Shown here piece by piece: positions 6,130-43,632 of a stretch of DNA of 44,501 nucleotides; the first letter of the stretch is position 1, and each line of letters starts with the position of its first letter. The notes under the pieces are model-generated. The model ran no database searches. It worked only from the letters and a program-made list of their open reading frames with translations, and was not told the origin of the DNA. The stretch lies in IMG/VR virus record IMGVR_UViG_3300017737_000014, positions 1-44,501 of that record; one strand, given 5' to 3'. This stretch comes from a virus. A program made the translations under genes and the position numbers.

Positions 6130-7590
6130 ATGGCGGGAACAGTACAACCAACCCCAGGATTTCAGCTACAGCCAGCCCCACAACAGGTGGCTTTAGCTAC
6201 AAACTATATTACCGATTTCAACTTTTTGAATCAGTATCTTCCCGATACTTATGAAAAAGAGTTTGAGCGTTACGGTAATCGAACAATCTCCTCTTTCCTT
6301 CGGTTAGTAGGAGCAGAACTACCTTCTAACTCAGACCTTATAAAATGGGCAGAGCAAGGTAGATTACACACTAAGTATATCAAAGTAGGAGCAGGCGCAG
6401 TAGTTGCAGGCGGAGAAGTAGTTTTCCAAATCAACGATGCTTTAGTTCCAGATAGAGCCGCAACAGGACTTACTGCAGGGCAAATTGCTATTCGTGTAGG
6501 TCAAACAGTTGTTGTTGCTAATAACGATGGTTCAGGCGAGTTCAAAGGACTTGTAGTAGCTGTTGATTTAGCTAACGCACAAGTAACTGTAGCGTTCTAT
6601 GATGCACAAGGTTATACAGGCGGTTCAGGATTAGGAAGTAGTGACGCAACAATCTTCATTTATGGTTCTGAATTTAAAAAAGGAACAAGCGGAATGCAAG
6701 GTTCTTTAGAGGCAGAAGATGAAATCTTTGACAACTCTCCAATCATTCTTAAAGATAAGTATGCAGTATCTGGTTCAGATATGGCTCAAATCGGATGGAT
6801 TGAAGTAACTACAGAAAATGGAGCAAGTGGATATCTATGGTATCTAAAATCAGAGCACGAAACAAGACTTCGTTTTGACGACTATCTTGAGACTGCAATG
6901 ATTGAAGCTGTTCCTGCACAAGCTGGTTCAGGAGTTAAAGCTCAGGTTCTATCTGACCAAGTAGGAGACAAAGGTTCTGAAGGTATATTCCATGCGGTTA
7001 GCACAAGAGGTAACCTTTATGCTGGCGGAAACCCAACAGTTCTTGGTGATTTTGACTCTATTATTTCTCGTTTAGATAAGCAGGGTGCTATTGAAGAAAA
7101 TGTAATTTTCTTGAACAGAGACTTTGGCTTTGACATTGACGATATGTTAGCTGCTCAAAACTCATACGGAAACCCAGGTGGTACTTCTTACGGATTGTTT
7201 GACAATGACGAAGAAATGGCATTGAACCTTGGGTTCACAGGATTCCGTAGAGGATATGATTTCTATAAGTCAGATTGGAAATATCTAAATGACCCAACCA
7301 TGCGAGGTGGTTTAGCGGGCGGAGCAACTTCAGGACGTGTAAACGGACTATTAGTTCCAGCTGGTTCAACTACAGTGTATGACCAAATCCTTGGCAAAAA
7401 CGCTAAGAGACCATTCCTTCACGTGCGTTACCGTGCTTCAGAAACTGAAGACAGACGTTATAAAACGTGGATTACTGGTTCTGCTGGTGGAGCTGCTACA
7501 TCGGATTTAGATGCGATGGAAGTTAACTTCCTATCAGAAAGATGTGTTTGTACAATGGGTGCAAACAACTTCTTCTTGTTTACAGATTAG
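6130..7590 (+). CDS. Major capsid protein
   Basis: This 486-residue protein should be the HK97-fold subunit of the icosahedral shell. It follows the scaffold-like gene by 24 nt and is followed directly by a strong terminator, typical of a highly expressed capsid gene. The N-terminal region (NYITDFNFLNQYLPDTYEKEF, residues about 25-46) resembles capsid proteins of crAss-like phages, and the length (about 490) matches theirs. An Ala/Gly/Val-rich insertion at about 85-180 looks like a beta-rich surface domain. The end, CVCTMGANNFFLF, is typical of the conserved C-terminus. Codon choice here (GGA, GCA, GTT, CTT rich) looks more biased than in neighbouring genes, as expected for an abundant protein. 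Confidence 0.85.
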   Translation: MAGTVQPTPGFQLQPAPQQVALATNYITDFNFLNQYLPDTYEKEFERYGNRTISSFLRLVGAELPSNSDLIKWAEQGRLHTKYIKVGAGAVVAGGEVVFQINDALVPDRAATGLTAGQIAIRVGQTVVVANNDGSGEFKGLVVAVDLANAQVTVAFYDAQGYTGGSGLGSSDATIFIYGSEFKKGTSGMQGSLEAEDEIFDNSPIILKDKYAVSGSDMAQIGWIEVTTENGASGYLWYLKSEHETRLRFDDYLETAMIEAVPAQAGSGVKAQVLSDQVGDKGSEGIFHAVSTRGNLYAGGNPTVLGDFDSIISRLDKQGAIEENVIFLNRDFGFDIDDMLAAQNSYGNPGGTSYGLFDNDEEMALNLGFTGFRRGYDFYKSDWKYLNDPTMRGGLAGGATSGRVNGLLVPAGSTTVYDQILGKNAKRPFLHVRYRASETEDRRYKTWITGSAGGAATSDLDAMEVNFLSERCVCTMGANNFFLFTD

Positions 7591-7600
7591 TATATTACCC

Positions 7601-7630
7601 AAAGGGGGTGTCCTTAAAGACACTCCCTTT
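7601..7630 (+). terminator. Rho-independent terminator after capsid gene, built on the palindrome
   Basis: The stem pairs AAAGGGGGTGTC with GACACTCCCTTT (one G-T pair) around a CTTAAA loop, followed by a T run to 7633. The core (7608-7623) is a variant of the dispersed 16-bp palindrome with C for T in the left arm. It lies 11 nt after the capsid stop. Confidence 0.88.
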
Positions 7631-9478: not shown

Positions 9479-10401
9479 TGGCATATATTAGCGCATGGCA
9501 ATATTACGAGAATGAAGGTAACGCACCAGAAAATGAAAACTGGGGGTCTTATCAATACGTGAGCCTGGAAGATATTGTCAACAATTTTATGTTGATGTAT
9601 GCGGGCAACCATTCTTTAATTAACAACGAAGAGCGGTTTAAAGTTTTGTTTCATGCTAAAAGAGCAATTCAGGAACTAAACTACGATGCGTTTAAAGAAA
9701 TTAAAATATTAGAACTTCAAGTGTGTGACAATTTAAGATTTGTTTTGCCACCGGATTATGTTAACTGGGTAAGGATATCTATATATAAAGACGGTGTGCT
9801 TAGACCTCTTACTGAAAACATACAAACTAATTACAGCGATGCGTACTTACAAGACCATGAGTGTAAAATATTATTTGATGACCAAGGAAATGTTTTAAAG
9901 CCATCTACATCTTTAATTGATTTACAACGAATTGAAGGCACAAAAAAGAGTATTTACTTAAACCAAAACAGCCCTTACAACAATATGGAAGGATACTGCG
10001 TTGATGGGTATTGGTGCTTTGATTACGCCATTGGCGCTCGTTATGGTTTAAATACAGAAACAGCTAACTCTAATCCTACTTTTCGAATAGACTCAAAAAG
10101 TGGAGTAATTAACTTTAGCTCAGGAATGGCAAAAGAATTTTGCATCCTTGAGTATGTCTCAGACGGAATGGAATCTGGAGATGATTCTAAAATAAGCGTT
10201 AATAAATTGTTTGAAGAATATATTTATGCGTATATCCAGTTTGCTATATTGAATGGTAAGTTAGGGGTTCAAGAGTATATTGTAAATAGAGCAAGAAAAA
10301 GAAGCTCTGCTTTACTTAGGAATGCTAAAATTAGAATTAGTAACATACACCCTGGCAGACTACTTATGAATATGCGAGGTAAGGATAAATGGATAAAGTA
10401 A
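9478..10401 (+). CDS. Putative tail adaptor / tubular ring protein
   Basis: 307 residues, overlapping the preceding stop by one base (TAATG). Helical N-terminal half (VSLEDIVNNFMLMY, then FKVLFHAKRAIQELNYDAFK), followed by a beta region with FVLPPDYVNWVRISIYKDG, a pattern common in tail tubular or adaptor proteins of podoviruses, and a helical basic C-terminus (NRARKRSSALLRNAKIR). It lies between another connector-type gene and the stabilisation-type protein, one base before the next ORF's leader. A role in joining portal to tail is the likely reading. There are no catalytic residues to test this; the call is from family pattern and gene order. Confidence 0.58.
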   Translation: MAYISAWQYYENEGNAPENENWGSYQYVSLEDIVNNFMLMYAGNHSLINNEERFKVLFHAKRAIQELNYDAFKEIKILELQVCDNLRFVLPPDYVNWVRISIYKDGVLRPLTENIQTNYSDAYLQDHECKILFDDQGNVLKPSTSLIDLQRIEGTKKSIYLNQNSPYNNMEGYCVDGYWCFDYAIGARYGLNTETANSNPTFRIDSKSGVINFSSGMAKEFCILEYVSDGMESGDDSKISVNKLFEEYIYAYIQFAILNGKLGVQEYIVNRARKRSSALLRNAKIRISNIHPGRLLMNMRGKDKWIK

Positions 10402-10402
10402 T

Positions 10403-13400
10403 ATGCCTACTACTCAAAGAAATTTTATAGCTGGACGAATGAACAAGAGCGTTGATGAACGCCTTGTGCCTAATGGTGAATATATAAATGCTGTTAACGT
10501 TAGGCTTGGCTCTACCGAACAATCAGAAGTCGGGTCGGTTGAAAATTCAAAAGGAAATCAAAAGCTTACTTCAATAGAGTATTTAAACGTGCCACTAAGC
10601 TCAGAAGCAAAATGTATTGGCTCTTTACAGGATGGTCAGCGCGAAACAATAATATGGTTTGTGCACGACCCTGCGTTTACAGGCTCACCTACTGGGAAGC
10701 TCGACATGGTCGTTTCTTTCAATGTAGTGGAAAATACACTTAATTATCATTTAATAAGTGTAAATGACGGTGGAGGAGTTAACACAACTTTAAATTTTAA
10801 TGACAAGTTTTTAATCACGGGTGTCGATAGGGTGGATGACTTATTGTTTTTTACAGACAATATAAATCCCCCAAGATTTATAAATATTTTAAGACCCTAC
10901 GACATTCCAATAGGGACTCCTTTGGTTGATGTCTTTACATCTGAAGAGATATTAGTAATTAAAAAACCACCAGCCACATCACCATCTATATCTTTACGCG
11001 CCTTAAGTGGTGAAGAAAATTTTTTAGAAACAAGGTTTATTAGTTTTGCGTACAGATATCAATACGAAGATGGAGAATACTCTGCTTTATCCCAATTTTC
11101 AGAACCTGCTTTTCAGCCTGTTGGATTTGATTTTAGCACAGACTCAGGTCTTAACGAGGGCATGCAAAATGCCTTTAACTCAGTTCAGGTAACATATAAT
11201 TCAGGTTCAAATTTAGTAAAACAAATAGAAGTAGTATTTAAAGAATCTACAAGTAGTGTTATAAAATCTATTGAAAAATTTAACAAGGAAGAATTAGGTC
11301 TGGCTAACAATACAAATTATAATTTAGATTTTACAAACAGTAAGATATTTACCGTGTTGCCCAATACTGAAATAGTAAGGTTGTTTGACAATGTTCCTTT
11401 AAAAGCTCAAGCTCAAACTATTATGGGTAATCGGTTGGTTTATGGCAACTATGTTGACGGTTTTGATTTAATTGACTTAAACACAAACCCAGTAAAATTA
11501 GAATACACCGTTGGTTTAGTGTCTGAAGAGATTGGAGCTGGAGATGTTTCTGATGAAACTGCTCCGCAAGATTATTCTATTGATGGCCCTGTTACAATAC
11601 AAAATGCAAGAGTTAATTTTGACTTAAATGGATTGGAATTGAAAGCTGGTGCTACCATTACTTTTGATATTCGTTTTGACCACTCTCAATTTAGTGGACA
11701 AACTCCTTTTCCTTCAGAAACAACTGACAATATAGACATATCATTTGCTTTTAATTTACCAAGTGATTTTAATAGTGTATATGAATTAGCTACAGACCCA
11801 TTATTTACTGAAAGCGTTGGGACAGCAGCCAATATAAAACCTGTTTCTGGTCAGCCAGGTGATGAAACTTCTTGTGACGGTACAACTTTTACAGATTCTT
11901 TCAACTGCTTGATACCTCAAAACTTAGATTCATTAACAAAATTTGCCAGCGGAATATCAGCTAACGGACAGGCAATACAGATATTTACTTCTCCAGGCAG
12001 TACTGAAATAGGTTTTTCATTGCTATCAATGGCTTATGTAGATGATATAACAACCCCTACACAAACGGTTTATGAGTATTATGACATATCGTCTGCCGAA
12101 GGGTTTTATTTAGGATTAGGTAATCCAAAAAGCTTACATAGTAATAGAGACTATGAAATAGGCATTGTGTATATGGATGAATTTAATAGGTCTACTACAG
12201 CTTTAGTTAGTCCTAATAATACCACGCATATTCCTTGTGCCCTTTCAAGCTTTGCTAACAGAATAAAGGTTGAAATACCGCCTACTCAGTTAGCTCCAAA
12301 ATGGGCTACAAAATACAAGTTTGTAATTAAACCTGATTTAGAAGATTATAATACAATATATACTAACATATTTTTTCTTGACCCCACAACTAATGCTACG
12401 TTCTTTTTATTAGATGGTGAAAACTCAAGGAAAGTAGAGGAGGGCGATAGGTTAATAGTAAAAAGAGATACGGAGGGGGCGACTACAAAATGTAGATTTG
12501 CCACAGTATTAGAAAAAGATGCTCAAACCGCAGACTTTTTAGACCCCGCTCCAAAAGATGGCCTTGGTGAAGATGTGCCTATCCCCGCTGGTACTTACAT
12601 GAAAATATTAGCTAATGATTTTAACATTATTCAAGGAGATAATCCTGTAATACAGGCAGGACAAAAGAAATCTACGGGGACAAGTGGTGGCTCATATCCT
12701 GTTGTTAGATACCCTTGTAACATTCCAGACCCCAATATATCTGGTAGTTTTATAGACTACACAATCCCTGCTGGCTCAAGAATAAAAATAGAAGCAGATT
12801 TTAATAGACCAGGGAAGGGGAGAAAGTGTGACGGCAGAAGATATCAATTAGACTTAAACTTGACTTCATCTCAAGAATATGAAAACTTTAAAGAATGGTG
12901 GGATGGAGATAATGTTGAGACAAGATTAGGAGATGGCACAGCAACTGTTTCTGGAGACCCTGATTGCCCCGTACCGTATTTTCAAAACTTTTATGACGCT
13001 TCTTTTGCGGCTGATGATAATGATATAGATAGAAACCCGTGTATTTATAATTGGAGATACTATAGAGACTCCACAACAAATGAATTATTATTATTAGTTA
13101 GCGGAACAAACTCGTGTTCCGGAGCAACAAACGGCTCAAGAGACAGAAGGGCTCGTGTTAGTTTAACCATTTCTGTATTTAGGGCAGACAACACTATTGT
13201 TTTTGAAACTCAACCAGAGGACGCTACTCCAGATTTGTGGTATGAGTCTTCTCAATCTTTTGAGATAGACACTGTAAATGGTTTTCATACGGGTAATGTT
13301 CAAAATCAAACCAGCGTACAATCTGCTGTTATTGACACTGCATTTTTTAATTGTTATTCTTTTGGCAATGGTGTGGAAAGTTACAAAATAAGAGACTCAA

Positions 13401-36020: not shown

Positions 36021-36050
36021 AAAAAAAGGGAGTGTCTTTGAAGACACCCC
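36021..36050 (-). terminator. Rho-independent terminator after ssb-like gene, built on the palindrome
   Basis: On the minus strand: GGGGGTGTCTTCAAAGACACTCCC followed by seven T. The core (36032-36047) is an exact copy of the dispersed palindrome. It is nearly the same terminator as the one after the capsid gene, but on the opposite strand, and lies about 10 nt after the ssb-like stop. Confidence 0.88.
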
Positions 36051-39206: not shown

Positions 39207-39222
39207 CCCCCGTAATGGGGGT
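39196..39222 (-). terminator. Rho-independent terminator of accessory operon
   Basis: Minus strand ACCCCC-ATTAC-GGGGGT followed by TTGTTTTTGTT: a perfect 6-bp G/C stem and T-rich tail. It lies after three tandem hairpin repeats behind the gene ending at 39286. Confidence 0.8.
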
Positions 39223-39286
39223 CGTATCTTTTTGGGTACGCTGTCGTATCTTTTTGGATACGCTGTCGTATCTTTTCGGATACGCT
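39221..39286. repeat. Three tandem 22-bp hairpin repeats
   Basis: Unit GTCGTATCTTTTTGGATACGCT occurs three times head to tail (39221, 39243, 39265) with one or two base changes. Each unit can form a CGTATC/GATACG hairpin with a 6-nt loop; unit 1 has a G-T pair. The last base of the third unit begins the reverse-complemented stop codon of the gene at 39286-39519. Confidence 0.88.
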
Positions 39287-40227: not shown

Positions 40228-40436
40228 AGCACGTTCTTTTGAATTAGTTCCAAGCGTTCGAGTTTTACCTCGTCTGTTAGTTCGTCCCAATCGGAGGGCT
40301 TCTCCCACTCAGGATTAAAGCTTCGCATGGTAGCAAATACCATACGTTCCTTGGTTTTTACTTTCGCCTTGATATCATTATCAGAAGTCAAGTCGGTCAT
40401 AGCCATGAATGCGCTGAGCATATTAAAAGTATCCAT
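40224..40436 (-). CDS. Small hypothetical protein (70 aa) downstream of ribozyme HH1
   Basis: Start at the ATG at 40436. The frame stays open upstream, but that stretch is the hammerhead ribozyme and palindrome, so the longer version is rejected. Met-rich helix (FNMLSAFMAMTDL) then a charged segment and an acidic helix (WDELTDEVKLERLELIQ). The ATG lies 23 nt after the ribozyme in an A/T-rich leader. This gene is therefore the first one on the 3' cleavage product. Function unknown. Confidence 0.62.
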   Translation of the reverse strand: MDTFNMLSAFMAMTDLTSDNDIKAKVKTKERMVFATMRSFNPEWEKPSDWDELTDEVKLERLELIQKNVL

Positions 40437-40459
40437 AATAAAAAAATTAAAATTAGAGT

Positions 40460-40512
40460 TGCTGTTTCGACCTTTCGGTCTCGTCAGGGGAGACACACAT
40501 CTCCCGACAGCA
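40460..40512 (-). ncRNA. Hammerhead self-cleaving ribozyme HH1 (type III topology)
   Basis: Read on the minus strand, 5' to 3': stem III UGCUGU (40512-40507), cleavage base C (40506), stem I GGGAGA, loop UGUGUG, UCUCCC. Then core CUGACGA (40487-40481), stem II GACC with GAAA tetraloop and GGUC, core GAA (40468-40466), then stem III ACAGCA (40465-40460). All stems pair perfectly (6, 4 and 6 bp). Every invariant core base of the hammerhead consensus (CUGANGA, GAAA, NUH) is present, with the favoured GUC triplet. Cleavage is predicted between 40506 and 40505. The ends lie in stem III, which defines type III. It sits between the amidotransferase/cyclotransferase gene and the 70-aa gene. Confidence 0.93.
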
Positions 40513-40515
40513 CGA

Positions 40516-40533
40516 AGTGTCTTTGAAGACACT
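40516..40533. repeat. Dispersed palindrome copy, 3 nt before ribozyme HH1
   Basis: The minus-strand RNA reads AGUGUCUUCAAAGACACU and can fold as a hairpin with a UCAA loop. It lies between the amidotransferase/cyclotransferase stop (40550) and ribozyme stem III. Confidence 0.9.
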
Positions 40534-40549
40534 CCGTTCTGCTCGCATA

Positions 40550-41635
40550 TTAGTAATGAGCATTCATCACTTCGGTTTCGGTGTACCACTCGTGGCACAC
40601 TCTGCATTCAAAGGCGTTTGCAACCTCGTCATACATTAGGTCATTGTAACAGCCCAAGCAATAAGGCGCGTCACTTGTGTCGTCCATGTCGTTAATCTCC
40701 GTACACTCATACGTCTCTCGCACGTTTACAGGCTCTTTGTCTGCAAAACTAAAGACAGGCTGGGTGTAGTAGTGCACCGGCGTTTGGCGTAGCTTTACGT
40801 AGTCCGATATTAGCTTGCTGTGCATGGGCGCATTGCCATTCTGAAAGTATAGCCAAGCTGTAATAACTTTACCGCTTTTCATCACAACAGGTATCTGCTT
40901 GCGTTCGTACCAATTAGGGTGTCCCTCGAGTTGGTCAATAGGCTTCAAGTCCATGTCGCCAACCTTGAATACGTCTACAACAATTTGATTACCTCTGCCT
41001 TTCTCGTCATACACATAAGGTATTCCTTGCGCTATCATGGGGTATTTATCCTGTGTAGTTCCACTGCCAAGGTGTTTGGCGTTACGTAAGTACCGGTGGT
41101 AGTTGCCCATGCCTTTGCGTAGCGTTCCGTACACTGCAATAACATTGTCTTGTAGGACGTTGTTTTTGGAGTACCATACGCCGTCTTTGTACGTGTACAA
41201 GTTGCGGTTGTAAATTTGAAACGCACGTGTACGTGTGTTGATGGTTACAAATCTGCTGTCGTACTTCTGAAGTTCTTGCTTCCAAGTTTGACGCGGTATC
41301 TTGCCAAGTGCACGAGCCAATACTTTGGTGTCGCATTCTTTGGTGTTACCAAGCTTCTTGATAGTTCCGTTCATCATTAGTAGTTCGTCTTTGTTGTACC
41401 CACATCTGAAAGGGTGGGTGTTGTCCTTGTTTACAGCGCCAACAGTCGCATAGCGAAAGTGAGCAATAAAGGGACGTGTAGTGTCAAGTAGCTTATAAGC
41501 TTTTGACTTGTGATACTCGACCTGAAATGTATCGAGCCATACAATACCAAGTCCATGCGGATTGATACGTGCGGAGGTTTTTAACGTCTCCATTGGGATT
41601 GTGTTTGATTTCTGTTTGATGATAATAACACACAT
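40550..41635 (-). CDS. Class II glutamine amidotransferase / gamma-glutamylcyclotransferase-like fusion with zinc-ribbon tail
   Basis: 361 residues. I start at the ATG at 41635 because it gives MCVIIIK: Cys2 is the N-terminal nucleophile of class II (Ntn) amidotransferases. Supporting residues: NPHGLGIVW (25-33), HFRYATVG with NKDNTHPF (59-76), and MNGTI (88-92). From about 165 a second domain has the AIG2/GGCT signature VYGTLRKG (168-175) and QLEGHPNWYER with the expected acid E237. A C-terminal CxxC...CxxC (326/329, 344/347) suggests a zinc ribbon. The first domain should release ammonia from glutamine; the second should cyclise or remove gamma-glutamyl groups. Together with the amidoligase gene this suggests making and trimming an amide-linked modification. 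A promoter and a palindrome precede it; a palindrome and ribozyme follow. Confidence 0.82.
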   Translation of the reverse strand: MCVIIIKQKSNTIPMETLKTSARINPHGLGIVWLDTFQVEYHKSKAYKLLDTTRPFIAHFRYATVGAVNKDNTHPFRCGYNKDELLMMNGTIKKLGNTKECDTKVLARALGKIPRQTWKQELQKYDSRFVTINTRTRAFQIYNRNLYTYKDGVWYSKNNVLQDNVIAVYGTLRKGMGNYHRYLRNAKHLGSGTTQDKYPMIAQGIPYVYDEKGRGNQIVVDVFKVGDMDLKPIDQLEGHPNWYERKQIPVVMKSGKVITAWLYFQNGNAPMHSKLISDYVKLRQTPVHYYTQPVFSFADKEPVNVRETYECTEINDMDDTSDAPYCLGCYNDLMYDEVANAFECRVCHEWYTETEVMNAHY

Positions 41636-41654
41636 AAAAATAAAAATTGTGAGG

Positions 41655-41672
41655 AGTGTCTTTGAAGACACT
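41655..41672. repeat. Dispersed palindrome copy in 5' leader of the amidotransferase gene
   Basis: AGTGTCTTTGAAGACACT on plus. It lies between the -7 box at 41698-41705 and the ATG at 41635, about 19-36 nt into the predicted leader. Outer GAGG and CTC lengthen the possible hairpin. Confidence 0.9.
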
Positions 41673-41692
41673 GACCTCTGATTAAACATATA

Positions 41693-41893
41693 TTAGACAA
41701 AGATACGACATTCCTTAGACATACGCAAGCGATTTTGTAGTTCTTTTACAGCTGTCCGTAGATTGTTTTTATCCTGAGCCTTGTCTTTGTAGTTGATTGG
41801 CGTTGAGGTTTTTTCTGTAAGCATCAACGCAATACGCCTAAGGTCGCCTATCGTGGCAACCTTAAGCATTCTGCTAAACTCTGTATTATCCAT
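41693..41893 (-). CDS. Small hypothetical protein (66 aa)
   Basis: Starts MDNTEFSRM, basic and helical (GDLRRIALMLTEK, LRTAVKELQNRLRM), ending CRIFV. Its ATG overlaps the stop of the 61-aa gene in the string CATGGATAA. The same stop/start string, followed by MDNT, recurs after the 75-aa gene at 42110. The -7 box of the next promoter lies inside its 3' end. Confidence 0.6.
   Translation of the reverse strand: MDNTEFSRMLKVATIGDLRRIALMLTEKTSTPINYKDKAQDKNNLRTAVKELQNRLRMSKECRIFV
41698..41727 (-). promoter_or_regulatory. Bacteroidota-type promoter for the amidotransferase gene
   Basis: Minus strand TTG (41727-41725), 19 nt, then TATCTTTG (41705-41698): good -33/-7 pair. Transcription would start near 41690, giving a leader that contains the palindrome at 41655-41672. 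Confidence 0.7.
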
Positions 41894-42071
41894 GGTAACC
41901 AGAATTTAAAAATAAAGTAATGCTTTCGTCCCCATCATTCCAGACCTCAGCATCTTCAAAAAATATATCACAATTCTCATCTTCAGGATTTTCAAAATTT
42001 CCTAAGAAATGAATATATTTATCTTGATTTTCTACTTCTTGTAATTGCTTTATTAGCTCTTTTATTTTCAT
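41886..42071 (-). CDS. Small acidic hypothetical protein (61 aa)
   Basis: Start at the ATG at 42071 (MKIKELIKQL), right after an AAATAAA stop; the upstream in-frame ATG would overlap the duplicated junction. A basic helical start is followed by an acidic part (NPEDENCDIFFEDAEVWNDG) and the end LNSGYHG. The 75-aa gene upstream ends almost identically (LNCGYHG), though the rest of the two proteins differs. Confidence 0.6.
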   Translation of the reverse strand: MKIKELIKQLQEVENQDKYIHFLGNFENPEDENCDIFFEDAEVWNDGDESITLFLNSGYHG

Positions 42072-42098
42072 TTTATTTGATTTTAAGATTAAACTGAA
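42064..42098. repeat. 35-bp direct repeat, copy A
   Basis: Identical to 42330-42364 (plus strand begins ATTTTCATTTTATTTG and ends TTAAACTGAA). On the minus strand it encodes QFNLKIK-stop followed by ATGAAAAT, that is, the end of one frame and the start of the next small gene. Confidence 0.88.
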
Positions 42099-42117
42099 GC
42101 TGTTGTGTATTATCCAT
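42073..42117 (-). other. 14-codon mini-frame, probable cassette scar
   Basis: Reads MDNTQQLQFNLKIK then TAA. Its start matches the start of the 66-aa gene at 41893 (MDNT) and its end matches the end of the 51-aa gene at 42339 (QFNLKIK). It looks like the remnant left where a small-gene cassette was inserted or duplicated, but it could be translated as a coupling peptide. Confidence 0.5.
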
Positions 42118-42337
42118 GGTAACCACAATTTAAACAGGCTGTTGTCTCATTTTGTTTTGTCACTAAATATGGATTAAAGCACCCGTCAAAAAATATAGTC
42201 CTGTATTCTTGACCATTGTGATTAAAGCGCAAGCCTAAAACATGATTGCTTGTTATGTATTTGTGATTTTTGTCGTACATAAAATTGTACTTTTTTGATA
42301 ACGCATTTAATGTGCGTCCGTCTCTTATTATTTTCAT
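42110..42337 (-). CDS. Small hypothetical protein (75 aa)
   Basis: MKIIRDGRTL start, basic N-terminal half, a sheet-like middle (HVLGLRFNHNGQEYRTIFFD) and two Cys near the end (ACLNCGYHG). Not recognised. It begins two bases after the 51-aa gene's stop. Confidence 0.6.
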   Translation of the reverse strand: MKIIRDGRTLNALSKKYNFMYDKNHKYITSNHVLGLRFNHNGQEYRTIFFDGCFNPYLVTKQNETTACLNCGYHG

Positions 42338-42364
42338 TTTATTTGATTTTAAGATTAAACTGAA
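42330..42364. repeat. 35-bp direct repeat, copy B
   Basis: Identical to 42064-42098, spanning the end of the 51-aa gene and the start of the 75-aa gene. Confidence 0.88.
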
Positions 42365-42494
42365 TTAGCACGTCTTTCCACCACGATTGCATGGTGTACT
42401 CGTCTTCTGTTAGGACGTGTACGTGTCCGTCCTTTGTTGTGATTGCATGTAAGCCTGTCGGCAAAATTACGTGTCTTACGATTGTTTGTATCAT
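42339..42494 (-). CDS. Small hypothetical protein (51 aa) downstream of ribozyme HH2
   Basis: ATG at 42494, TAA at 42339. Begins MIQTIVRHVILPTGLHAITT and contains KDGHVHVLTEDEY and MQSWWKDV. The ATG lies 19 nt after the ribozyme, in an A/T-rich leader. It is the first gene on the predicted 3' cleavage product. Function unknown. Confidence 0.6.
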   Translation of the reverse strand: MIQTIVRHVILPTGLHAITTKDGHVHVLTEDEYTMQSWWKDVLIQFNLKIK

Positions 42495-42513
42495 GATATT
42501 AAATTTTAAAGTT

Positions 42514-42564
42514 CCTGTTTCTGCCTTTTGGCTTCATCAGTACCGGCACACACCGGTAAACAGG
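42514..42564 (-). ncRNA. Hammerhead self-cleaving ribozyme HH2 (type III topology)
   Basis: Minus strand, 5' to 3': stem III CCUGU (42564-42560), cleavage base U (42559), stem I UACCGG, loop UGUGUG, CCGGUA. Then core CUGAUGA (42540-42534), stem II GCC/GGC with AAAA loop and an A-A pair at its base (42533, 42522), core GAA (42521-42519), then stem III ACAGG. The core matches the hammerhead consensus. Loop 1 is identical to HH1 while stems I, II and III have other sequences that still pair. The GUU triplet and the missing G-C pair at the base of stem II suggest slower cleavage. Predicted cut between 42559 and 42558. It lies between the amidoligase gene and the 51-aa gene. Confidence 0.88.
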
Positions 42565-42569
42565 GGGCG

Positions 42570-42585
42570 GTGTCTTTGAAGACAC
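42570..42585. repeat. Dispersed palindrome copy, 5 nt before ribozyme HH2
   Basis: The minus-strand RNA reads GUGUCUUCAAAGACAC. Outer GGGG (42591-42588) can pair with CCCC (42567-42564), extending the hairpin until it touches the first pair of ribozyme stem III. No T run follows, so it is not an ordinary terminator. Confidence 0.9.
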
Positions 42586-42597
42586 TACCCCACTTTA

Positions 42598-43632
42598 CTA
42601 AGTTAGTGACACTAAGTTAGTGTAGTGTTCTAAATAACCCCTTTCGGCGTCATGTGCTATTTGTTCACGTGTCGCATGTGCGTTTCTTGTAAAAAAACGT
42701 TCGAAGCGTTCATTAGTACGTCCATGCCTTGACATGAAGTAAGGTGCAACATGTTGGTCAATTTTACCTGTCAGCACCATACGTCTGAAGTGCTTCGCAA
42801 GTTCAAATAACTTCGCAACTTTTTGCTCGTCATAATCGTACATGCTCATGATGATTGGTTTTAAGCGTTTTAACAGCGCATTAAACGTTCCGTTTGGATT
42901 GTTTACACTGAAGTCCACAAGCTCATAAAACAGCTCATAACGGCGCATCATTTGCTTCACACTGGTAAACCGGCTAACTACTCTAAATTCAACACCGAAG
43001 TCCTTGATTAGCGCCATTTGGTATTTGTGATGATATCCACCAACAAACCTGTCGCGAGGTGTAAAGTCGTAATTTAACATGGTTAAATTGTGATTGCAAT
43101 AGCTATTCTGAAAACGTCTTCTGAATAGCGCCATAATGATACCCACATTTTTACGTAGCAAATCATTTAATTGACCCCCGTTGAGCCCGTCTACAGCTAT
43201 TGTGATATGTCCACCACATTTACTATCCGAGGGGCTGTATCTGTCATCAATTATCTTCGTAGCCTTGTGCATCATGTCGTAAACTTTCGTTCTCCATGTA
43301 CTTGCACCCAACAGGGGTAATACATGCGTTACAGCTTCGTACCCACATGACCCGTCACGTTCGAACCCACAGAACAATTCGTACTCTCGTACCGAATTTC
43401 GGTGTAACCTCGTCTTTTCAACTTCGAAGCCTATGGTAAACTTTGACTTTACTTCGTCCCCCTCGATTAGTAGATTTTTGCGGTCTACACTTTTAAGGTT
43501 TGCAACATCAATAGTTTTAGCATTAGCCCTCATGATTGGTGATGGCTTGCGGTGATATGGCAAAATTTCACCACGTCTTTGCCCGTCATTCAATACTTCG
43601 TATTGGTGTCCGTTATCTGATAAATTTCTCAT
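42598..43632 (-). CDS. Amidoligase-like enzyme (carboxylate-amine ligase, glutamine synthetase-like fold)
   Basis: 344 residues with the Amidoligase_2 / glutamate-cysteine-ligase-like pattern: IGFEVEK (67-73, GxExE metal site), ERDGSCGYEAVTHVLPL (91-107), KCGGHITI (138-145) and VEFRVVSR (214-221). These enzymes join a carboxylate to an amine using ATP. In the family survey by Iyer and colleagues (2009, as I recall it) such ligases neighbour class II amidotransferases and AIG2-like cyclotransferases in phages, as here with the gene at 40550-41635. The substrate is unknown: a small metabolite, peptide, cell wall component or protein tag are all open. The C-terminal 120 residues are helical and basic. 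A palindrome and ribozyme follow the stop. Confidence 0.78.
   Translation of the reverse strand: MRNLSDNGHQYEVLNDGQRRGEILPYHRKPSPIMRANAKTIDVANLKSVDRKNLLIEGDEVKSKFTIGFEVEKTRLHRNSVREYELFCGFERDGSCGYEAVTHVLPLLGASTWRTKVYDMMHKATKIIDDRYSPSDSKCGGHITIAVDGLNGGQLNDLLRKNVGIIMALFRRRFQNSYCNHNLTMLNYDFTPRDRFVGGYHHKYQMALIKDFGVEFRVVSRFTSVKQMMRRYELFYELVDFSVNNPNGTFNALLKRLKPIIMSMYDYDEQKVAKLFELAKHFRRMVLTGKIDQHVAPYFMSRHGRTNERFERFFTRNAHATREQIAHDAERGYLEHYTNLVSLT

Follow-up and report, generated by a model that had tools for sequence, protein, structure and literature searches.

Hairpin-linked type III hammerhead ribozymes at phage gene ends: a probable mRNA punctuation module

The virus record IMGVR_UViG_3300017737_000014 of IMG/VR is analysed here over a stretch of 44,501 nucleotides (the 44.5 kb window), with a focus on hammerhead ribozymes (HHRs) at the ends of its genes. 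The portal protein relates the virus to phages of Flavobacterium, Cellulophaga and Maribacter and to MW202828. On the minus strand, two units of the window share the same order of parts: (i) the stop codon of a gene, (ii) a hairpin with a palindromic core, (iii) a type III HHR, (iv) a short A/T-rich leader and (v) a small gene (Table 1). The first-pass annotation, which was made from the sequence alone, described this unit as occurring twice and placed cleavage at 40506/40505 in the first ribozyme (HH1) and at 42559/42558 in the second (HH2). Both copies are confirmed, and the predicted cleavage sites are correct, falling after C17 of HH1 and after U17 of HH2. The enzyme labels given to the two upstream genes fare unevenly. 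In unit 1, the cyclotransferase is well supported (Pfam E 1e-21) and the fused class II amidotransferase, with the gene start placed at the MC motif from the translation, is weakly supported. In unit 2, the label of amidoligase finds almost no support, as the window protein has no Pfam or PHROG match and PF12224, which carries the amidoligase label, is detected at E 0.14 in one of seven relatives tested; the assignment could not be made firmer, and the protein is referred to here as a putative amidoligase.

Both ribozymes have the CUGANGA ... GAAA core and the stems I, II and III of type III hammerheads, are open at stem III, and present an NUH cleavage triplet (GUC in HH1 and GUU in HH2). HH1 scores just below the gathering score (48.5 bits) of the Rfam model Hammerhead_3 (RF00008). 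HH2 has no Rfam match at E ≤ 1 and was found by motif and by R1, a model built from relatives with a training set that included both window HHRs. A search with the putative amidoligase yielded a family of 52 related loci, and a subsequent type III motif scan identified 118 HHRs (101 distinct) in 47 of these loci, all in the sense orientation relative to the upstream genes; 38 of the 42 family contigs carry type III HHRs. Position 17 is C or A in all but one of the 101 distinct copies. When 65 of the sequences are aligned, 96.5% of the cells are paired over 15 pairs, and the covariation score is reached by none of 500 shuffles. Judged by this pairing, the HHRs of the family are real hammerheads. 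They share the core, topology, three helices and GUH cleavage site of RF00008, but differ in scoring around or below its gathering score (43-49 bits) and in lacking the G-C pair at 10.1/11.1 in 13 of the 65 aligned relatives. The G-C pair is present in the other 52, while the 13 comprise 12 U·U and one A·A; in the window, HH1 has G-C and HH2 has A·A. The U·U form is concentrated behind the amidotransferase/cyclotransferase gene (18 of 28 HHRs) compared to the amidoligase-like gene (2 of 37; p=3e-7; family loci L005-L056). Variants with U10.1-U11.1 are described as active by Perreault et al. (PMC3088659), and it is our conjecture that cutting is tuned behind the amidotransferase/cyclotransferase gene.

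The family HHRs are placed between genes, with 97% behind a stop codon (median 33 nt) and 92% before a start codon (median 22 nt), compared to 38% and 40%, respectively, for random positions. The median of 33 nt between stop codon and HHR leaves room for a hairpin. At the amidoligase-like junction of 52 loci, an HHR is found in 44, a tRNA-like element in five and the palindrome alone in two; a sixth tRNA-like element, in L006, is seen by eye but is not called. At the amidotransferase/cyclotransferase junction of 44 loci, the corresponding numbers are 31, three and eight. The module was initially thought to be tied to two pathway genes; this is not upheld, as about two in five of the family HHRs follow a gene other than these, and other phages have different genes on either side of the module. 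The HHRs of other phages were collected by core-only patterns that are blind to the upstream sequence, and all counts given for them here and below are those among the matches listed. Type III HHRs of this set likewise lie between genes (91% behind a stop codon and 84% before a start codon). Type II HHRs follow the stop codon at a median of 1 nt, and only 50% of type I HHRs follow a stop codon.

A hairpin was scored as paired with an HHR when its predicted stability was ≤ -6 kcal/mol and it ended within 8 nt of the 5' edge of the ribozyme, with the HHRs clustered at 72% identity. By this measure, a hairpin is found at the 5' edge of type III HHRs in 43 of 51 family clusters and in 45 of 49 other-phage clusters, where the hairpins are often unrelated in sequence (e.g., GGGAGGAGCAAUCCUCCC, GGGGCGAAAGCCCC and GGGGGCUUCGGCCCCC). 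By contrast, hairpins before type I (8 of 40 clusters) and type II (25 of 99 clusters) are at or below background. HHRs from bacterial genomes were collected as a further set, and type III HHRs of other phages and bacteria combined differ from types I and II at p=5e-19 among the matches listed. The proposed link was thus examined in both related and unrelated phages: the search for unlinked hairpins and ribozymes did not refute it in the case of type III, with types I and II serving as a fitting negative control. On these counts, the pairing of a hairpin with type III HHRs is real and general. Types I and II have a hairpin of their own within the 5' product, in the form of stem III (medians -8.9 and -8.3, respectively, the type II value being biased by a search pattern that fixed three of its G-C pairs). 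In 111 of 113 family cases, the 5' product expected from the cut would retain a tail of 5-8 nt after the hairpin; for HH1 this tail is 6 nt. Among individual examples, the type III HHRs of Flavobacterium phage elemoA and Pseudomonas phage PaP3 (L468:45468) are apparently located in first-gene leaders, and Cellulophaga phage phi18:3 (L271:7996) has a type I HHR between genes. The latter was the only informative result when single hairpin-HHR sequences were compared by BLAST to cultured phages. Type III HHRs with upstream hairpins are also observed in many contigs of Patescibacteria (candidate phyla radiation, CPR; L413-L467).

The hairpin cores of the window belong to a 16-mer palindrome (GTGTCTTCAAAGACAC; general form GTGTCTT(YR)AAGACAC) with 10 copies in the window, of which nine are exact and one (7608) has a mismatch. 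When up to three mismatches are allowed, the window has 11 matches compared to a shuffle mean of 2.0. This palindrome had been regarded as the specific partner of the HHRs, a view that is rejected here, since four of the window copies are within open reading frames (ORFs), two are the cores of U-tract terminators, the copy at 41656 has no HHR, and elsewhere unrelated hairpins take its place. Two copies of the palindrome do form real terminators (7608 and 36032), which raises the prospect that the HHR-linked hairpins are decayed or weak intrinsic terminators with an HHR behind them by chance. This is very improbable, as a U-run (UUUU within 8 nt) of the kind found in intrinsic terminators is present behind none of the 113 HHR-linked hairpins, the spacing to the cut is constant at 5-8 nt, the hairpins of other phages are independent in sequence, and such hairpins are absent before types I and II; the terminator reading is rejected for the lack of U-runs.

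Copies of GTGTC-N6-GACAC number 7-13 in 11 of 12 contigs examined, compared to 0.06 expected, and the remaining contig (G035) has no such copy and GTCTCT-type copies instead. The core of the palindrome changes in concert within each genome, being TTCAAA in most, GTTAAC in 14 of 14 copies of MW202828 (L291/L292) and TTCGAA in L054. Coding copies occupy all three frames at recurring places in the ORFs of TerL, helicase and GroEL and in giant structural ORFs, with diverged flanking codons. The palindrome is, thus, a dispersed and sequence-conserved dyad, as is characteristic of operators and stoperators, and is likeliest maintained by a sequence-specific factor, which makes it a candidate protein-binding site. 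The stoperators of mycobacteriophage L5 consist of one short site in ten or more copies over the genome; the palindrome is similarly dispersed in at least 10 copies but is a near-perfect 16-bp palindrome.

These properties could be taken to mean that the palindrome acts as a scattered site for DNA binding, similar to an operator or stoperator, and that the RNA hairpin beside the HHRs is incidental. The copy number in 11 of 12 contigs, the coding copies in all three frames and the concerted changes of the core are in agreement with such a site, but the stems are extended only beside HHRs. Palindromes that adjoin HHRs have a median of four extra stem pairs compared to none in the ORF copies (p=6e-14) and none in other intergenic copies (p=6e-20). 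Of the four flanking pairs at the HHR-linked copies, the second (88% paired vs. a shuffle mean of 47%), third (88% vs. 71%) and fourth (90% vs. 75%) exceed the maximum of 2000 shuffles, whereas the first does not. The longer, covarying stems at HHRs indicate that the palindrome is built there into a longer RNA hairpin. An incidental hairpin would also leave unexplained the unrelated hairpins before the HHRs of other phages and the contrast of type III with types I and II. As a full account, the DNA site is therefore improbable, though a DNA-site role probably holds for the palindrome as a second layer that does not account for the hairpin-HHR pairing.

In mitochondria, structured RNA in the form of tRNA is located between genes and sets the mRNA ends (tRNA punctuation). 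Similarly, some junctions of the phage family carry a tRNA-like element where others have an HHR; the difference is that most of the tRNA-like elements are about 41-42 nt and have the acceptor and T-arm only. These mini-tRNA-like elements are found in the junctions of relatives (Table 1) and include a 7-bp acceptor, a linker of ~10 nt that contains (A)UGGU, and a T-arm marked by UUCGANU. In 18 such elements, 95% of the cells are paired compared to 56% after shuffling, with 84 vs. 22 double-sided changes. Broader scans of IMG/VR loci (L470-L664) reveal at least six of seven acceptor pairs in 131 of the 240 unique matches listed (18 expected), and 68 of the 121 structured elements among the matches listed are within 25 nt of a stop codon, compared to 13 control positions. 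Mini-tRNA-like elements are common in phages, often just behind stop codons, and are apparently undescribed. They are not full cloverleaf tRNAs: ARAGORN calls none of them, and Rfam at E ≤ 10 lists none of those in L032, L049, L054 and L131. RNase P is described to require a T-loop or similar loop and apparently not a D-loop (PMC4919913); thus, the mini elements could be substrates of RNase P, and RNase Z is a further possibility. The palindrome or another clear hairpin lies within a few nucleotides upstream of about 10 of the 17 elements in the amidoligase family. Longer tRNA-like elements of ~70-97 nt with an atypical middle are also observed (L008:6625, L013:9478, L028:15623, L031:13665, L045:15354 and L053:15519). 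ARAGORN did not report these in the loci to which it was applied, and several are preceded by the GTGTC-N6-GACAC palindrome.

The unit of hairpin and type III HHR is probably a module of mRNA punctuation: the HHR would make the cut, and the hairpin would form the 3' end that the upstream message thereby receives. This reading builds on the observed anatomy of the unit, its conservation and covariation, its position between stop and start codons, and the contrast of type III with types I and II. A long phage transcript would run through the genes, a stable hairpin would fold just after the stop codon, and the type III hammerhead directly behind it would cut itself. The upstream mRNA would then end in the hairpin followed by 5-8 nt and a terminal 2',3'-cyclic phosphate, thereby resembling the end made by an intrinsic terminator, but without the U-run and without stopping the polymerase. 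The ribozyme would stay attached to the downstream mRNA, giving it a structured leader with a 5'-OH, and the next start codon would follow after about 22 nt. A type III HHR would require a separate hairpin because a cut near its own 5' edge would leave none on the 5' product, whereas with types I and II the 5' product would keep the hairpin of stem III, and no extra one is present. Within the cell, such cleavage would be expected to provide a hairpin-protected 3' end, with consequences for gene expression. In T7-type RNase III punctuation, hairpins are found between phage genes, and polycistronic RNA is cut there to give stable 3' ends; here, the cutter would instead be the RNA itself, placed behind the hairpin. 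The earlier proposal of terminator-free mRNA processing is retained in its recurring hairpin-HHR-leader-gene module, the absence of a U-run and the 5-8 nt tail, and is set aside in its specific palindrome partner and its two pathway genes.

The main rival to the punctuation module is that the hairpin serves the ribozyme as a folding insulator, which would stack coaxially on the short, open stem III, make this stem more stable and block its invasion by the upstream coding RNA. Consistent with such stacking, stem III has only 4-5 pairs in the family alignment, and in 81 of 93 family cases the hairpin directly adjoins stem III (0 nt between them), although this flush gap is partly produced by maximal extension of both helices. 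Types I and II also adjoin the upstream RNA via an open stem, yet are without a hairpin, and stable extended hairpins are kept at homologous junctions that have no HHR (L024, L049 and L056). The insulator is, overall, rather unlikely. The fate of the cut pieces offers another alternative, as the predicted cuts of the two HHRs would release a 2.05 kb piece whose ends are ligatable, and the 5'-OH and 2',3'-cyclic phosphate could be joined by an RtcB-type ligase to form a circle. This circularisation is rejected and is barely tenable, as no RtcB is found in 23 family contigs (some of which are fragmentary), several contigs have a single HHR, and circular products were sought and not found in PMC3088659.

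Several observations weigh against the punctuation module. The pairing is weaker in type III HHRs from bacterial contigs, mostly Patescibacteria (30 of 49 clusters), and the type III HHR of the cultured phage elemoA (L290:19138) is without a strong upstream hairpin. HH2, with its A·A at 10.1/11.1 and its GUU site, may be a slow cutter, and the minimum free energy fold of isolated HH1 extends the hairpin stem into the 5' strand of stem III. The coding copies of the palindrome mean that its conservation is in part independent of HHRs, and the existence of hairpin-only junctions suggests a possible separate role for the hairpin. Mini-tRNA-like elements in phages at large show no enrichment of upstream hairpins (p=0.2 among the matches listed); thus, it is not universal that every cut 5' product ends in a hairpin, and the rule that every cutting element is preceded by one is rejected.

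HHR processing of phage transcripts was already proposed in 2011, when Perreault et al. described clustered prophage HHRs and suggested that these process long transcripts into gene-length mRNAs; tandem phage HHRs were found to cleave in vitro, and one set also did so in E. coli (PMC3088659). The prophage HHRs resemble those of the present family in that several HHRs flank genes in phage DNA. The word 'terminator' is absent from the main text of that study, which is not known to describe an upstream hairpin or a rule of type III vs. types I and II, or to discuss the 3' ends of the cleavage products (PMC3088659). The rule that links hairpins to type III HHRs, with types I and II as its control, appears to be new, with priority uncertain and considered within the open literature only.

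Table 1. Coordinates of the two gene-end units and of related features (window positions unless a locus is given).
Feature	Position	Strand	Evidence or remark
Unit 2 upstream gene, putative amidoligase, 344 aa	42598..43632	-	ORF; conserved in 52 IMG/VR loci; assignment weak
Unit 2 3' hairpin, GGGGUAGUGUCUUCAAAGACACCGCCCC	42564..42591	-	Sequence; exact palindrome core 42570-42585
HH2, type III hammerhead with flanks	42511..42567	-	R1 71.1 bits, E 1.8e-15; motif; predicted cut 42559/42558 (GUU); A·A at 10.1/11.1
Unit 2 A/T-rich leader up to next start codon	42495..42510	-	Sequence
Unit 2 downstream small gene, 51 aa	42339..42494	-	ORF; no family above cut-off
Third palindrome copy, before amidotransferase/cyclotransferase gene, without HHR	41656..41671	-	Sequence
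Unit 1 upstream gene, N-terminal class II glutamine amidotransferase (MCVIII..., Cys2) fused to gamma-glutamyl cyclotransferase	40550..41635	-	PF06094 1.4e-21; PF13230 3.5e-5
Unit 1 3' hairpin, ACGGAGUGUCUUCAAAGACACUUCGU, 11 bp	40512..40537	-	Fold; core 40517-40532
HH1, type III hammerhead with flanks	40458..40514	-	RF00008 45.7 bits, E 5.8e-7; R1 70.1 bits, E 3e-15; predicted cut 40506/40505 (GUC)
Unit 1 A/T-rich leader	40437..40457	-	Sequence
Unit 1 downstream small gene, 70 aa	40224..40436	-	ORF; no family above cut-off
Palindrome copies in window	416, 7608, 17507, 31933, 36032, 39017, 40517, 41656, 42570, 44451		
Palindrome as ordinary intrinsic terminator, GGGGGGUGUCUUCAAAGACACUCCCUUUUUUU	36032..36047	-	
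Variant palindrome as intrinsic terminator (UUUUUU), after virion structural gene 6130-7590	7608..7623	+	
22-nt repeat, GTCGTATCTTTTTGGGTACGCT, three tandem copies	39221-39286		
Mini-tRNA-like elements of relatives	L032:8986-9026; L040:8891-8932, 10540-10581; L047:3318-3359; L049:7890-7931; L054:7948-7988, 9699-9739; L131:4851-4891		

The role of bacterial and phage hammerheads has been described as open (PMC6155905, PMC10085705). A broader proposal, advanced tentatively and with less confidence than the module itself, is that RNA punctuation is a general code among phages, with gene ends produced by cutting and not by termination. With types I and II, stem III of the ribozyme would itself serve as the hairpin 3' end, and with type III a dedicated hairpin would do so; some relatives would have a mini-tRNA-like element, a presumed substrate of RNase P or RNase Z, instead of the ribozyme. 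The contrast of type III with types I and II points to one HHR function, the formation of the 3' end of the upstream mRNA, and yields precise predictions of RNA ends that are open to mapping. Units of this type may also be of use as compact, terminator-free gene-end parts for expression work. If true, the general cutting code would supply the missing function of phage hammerheads.

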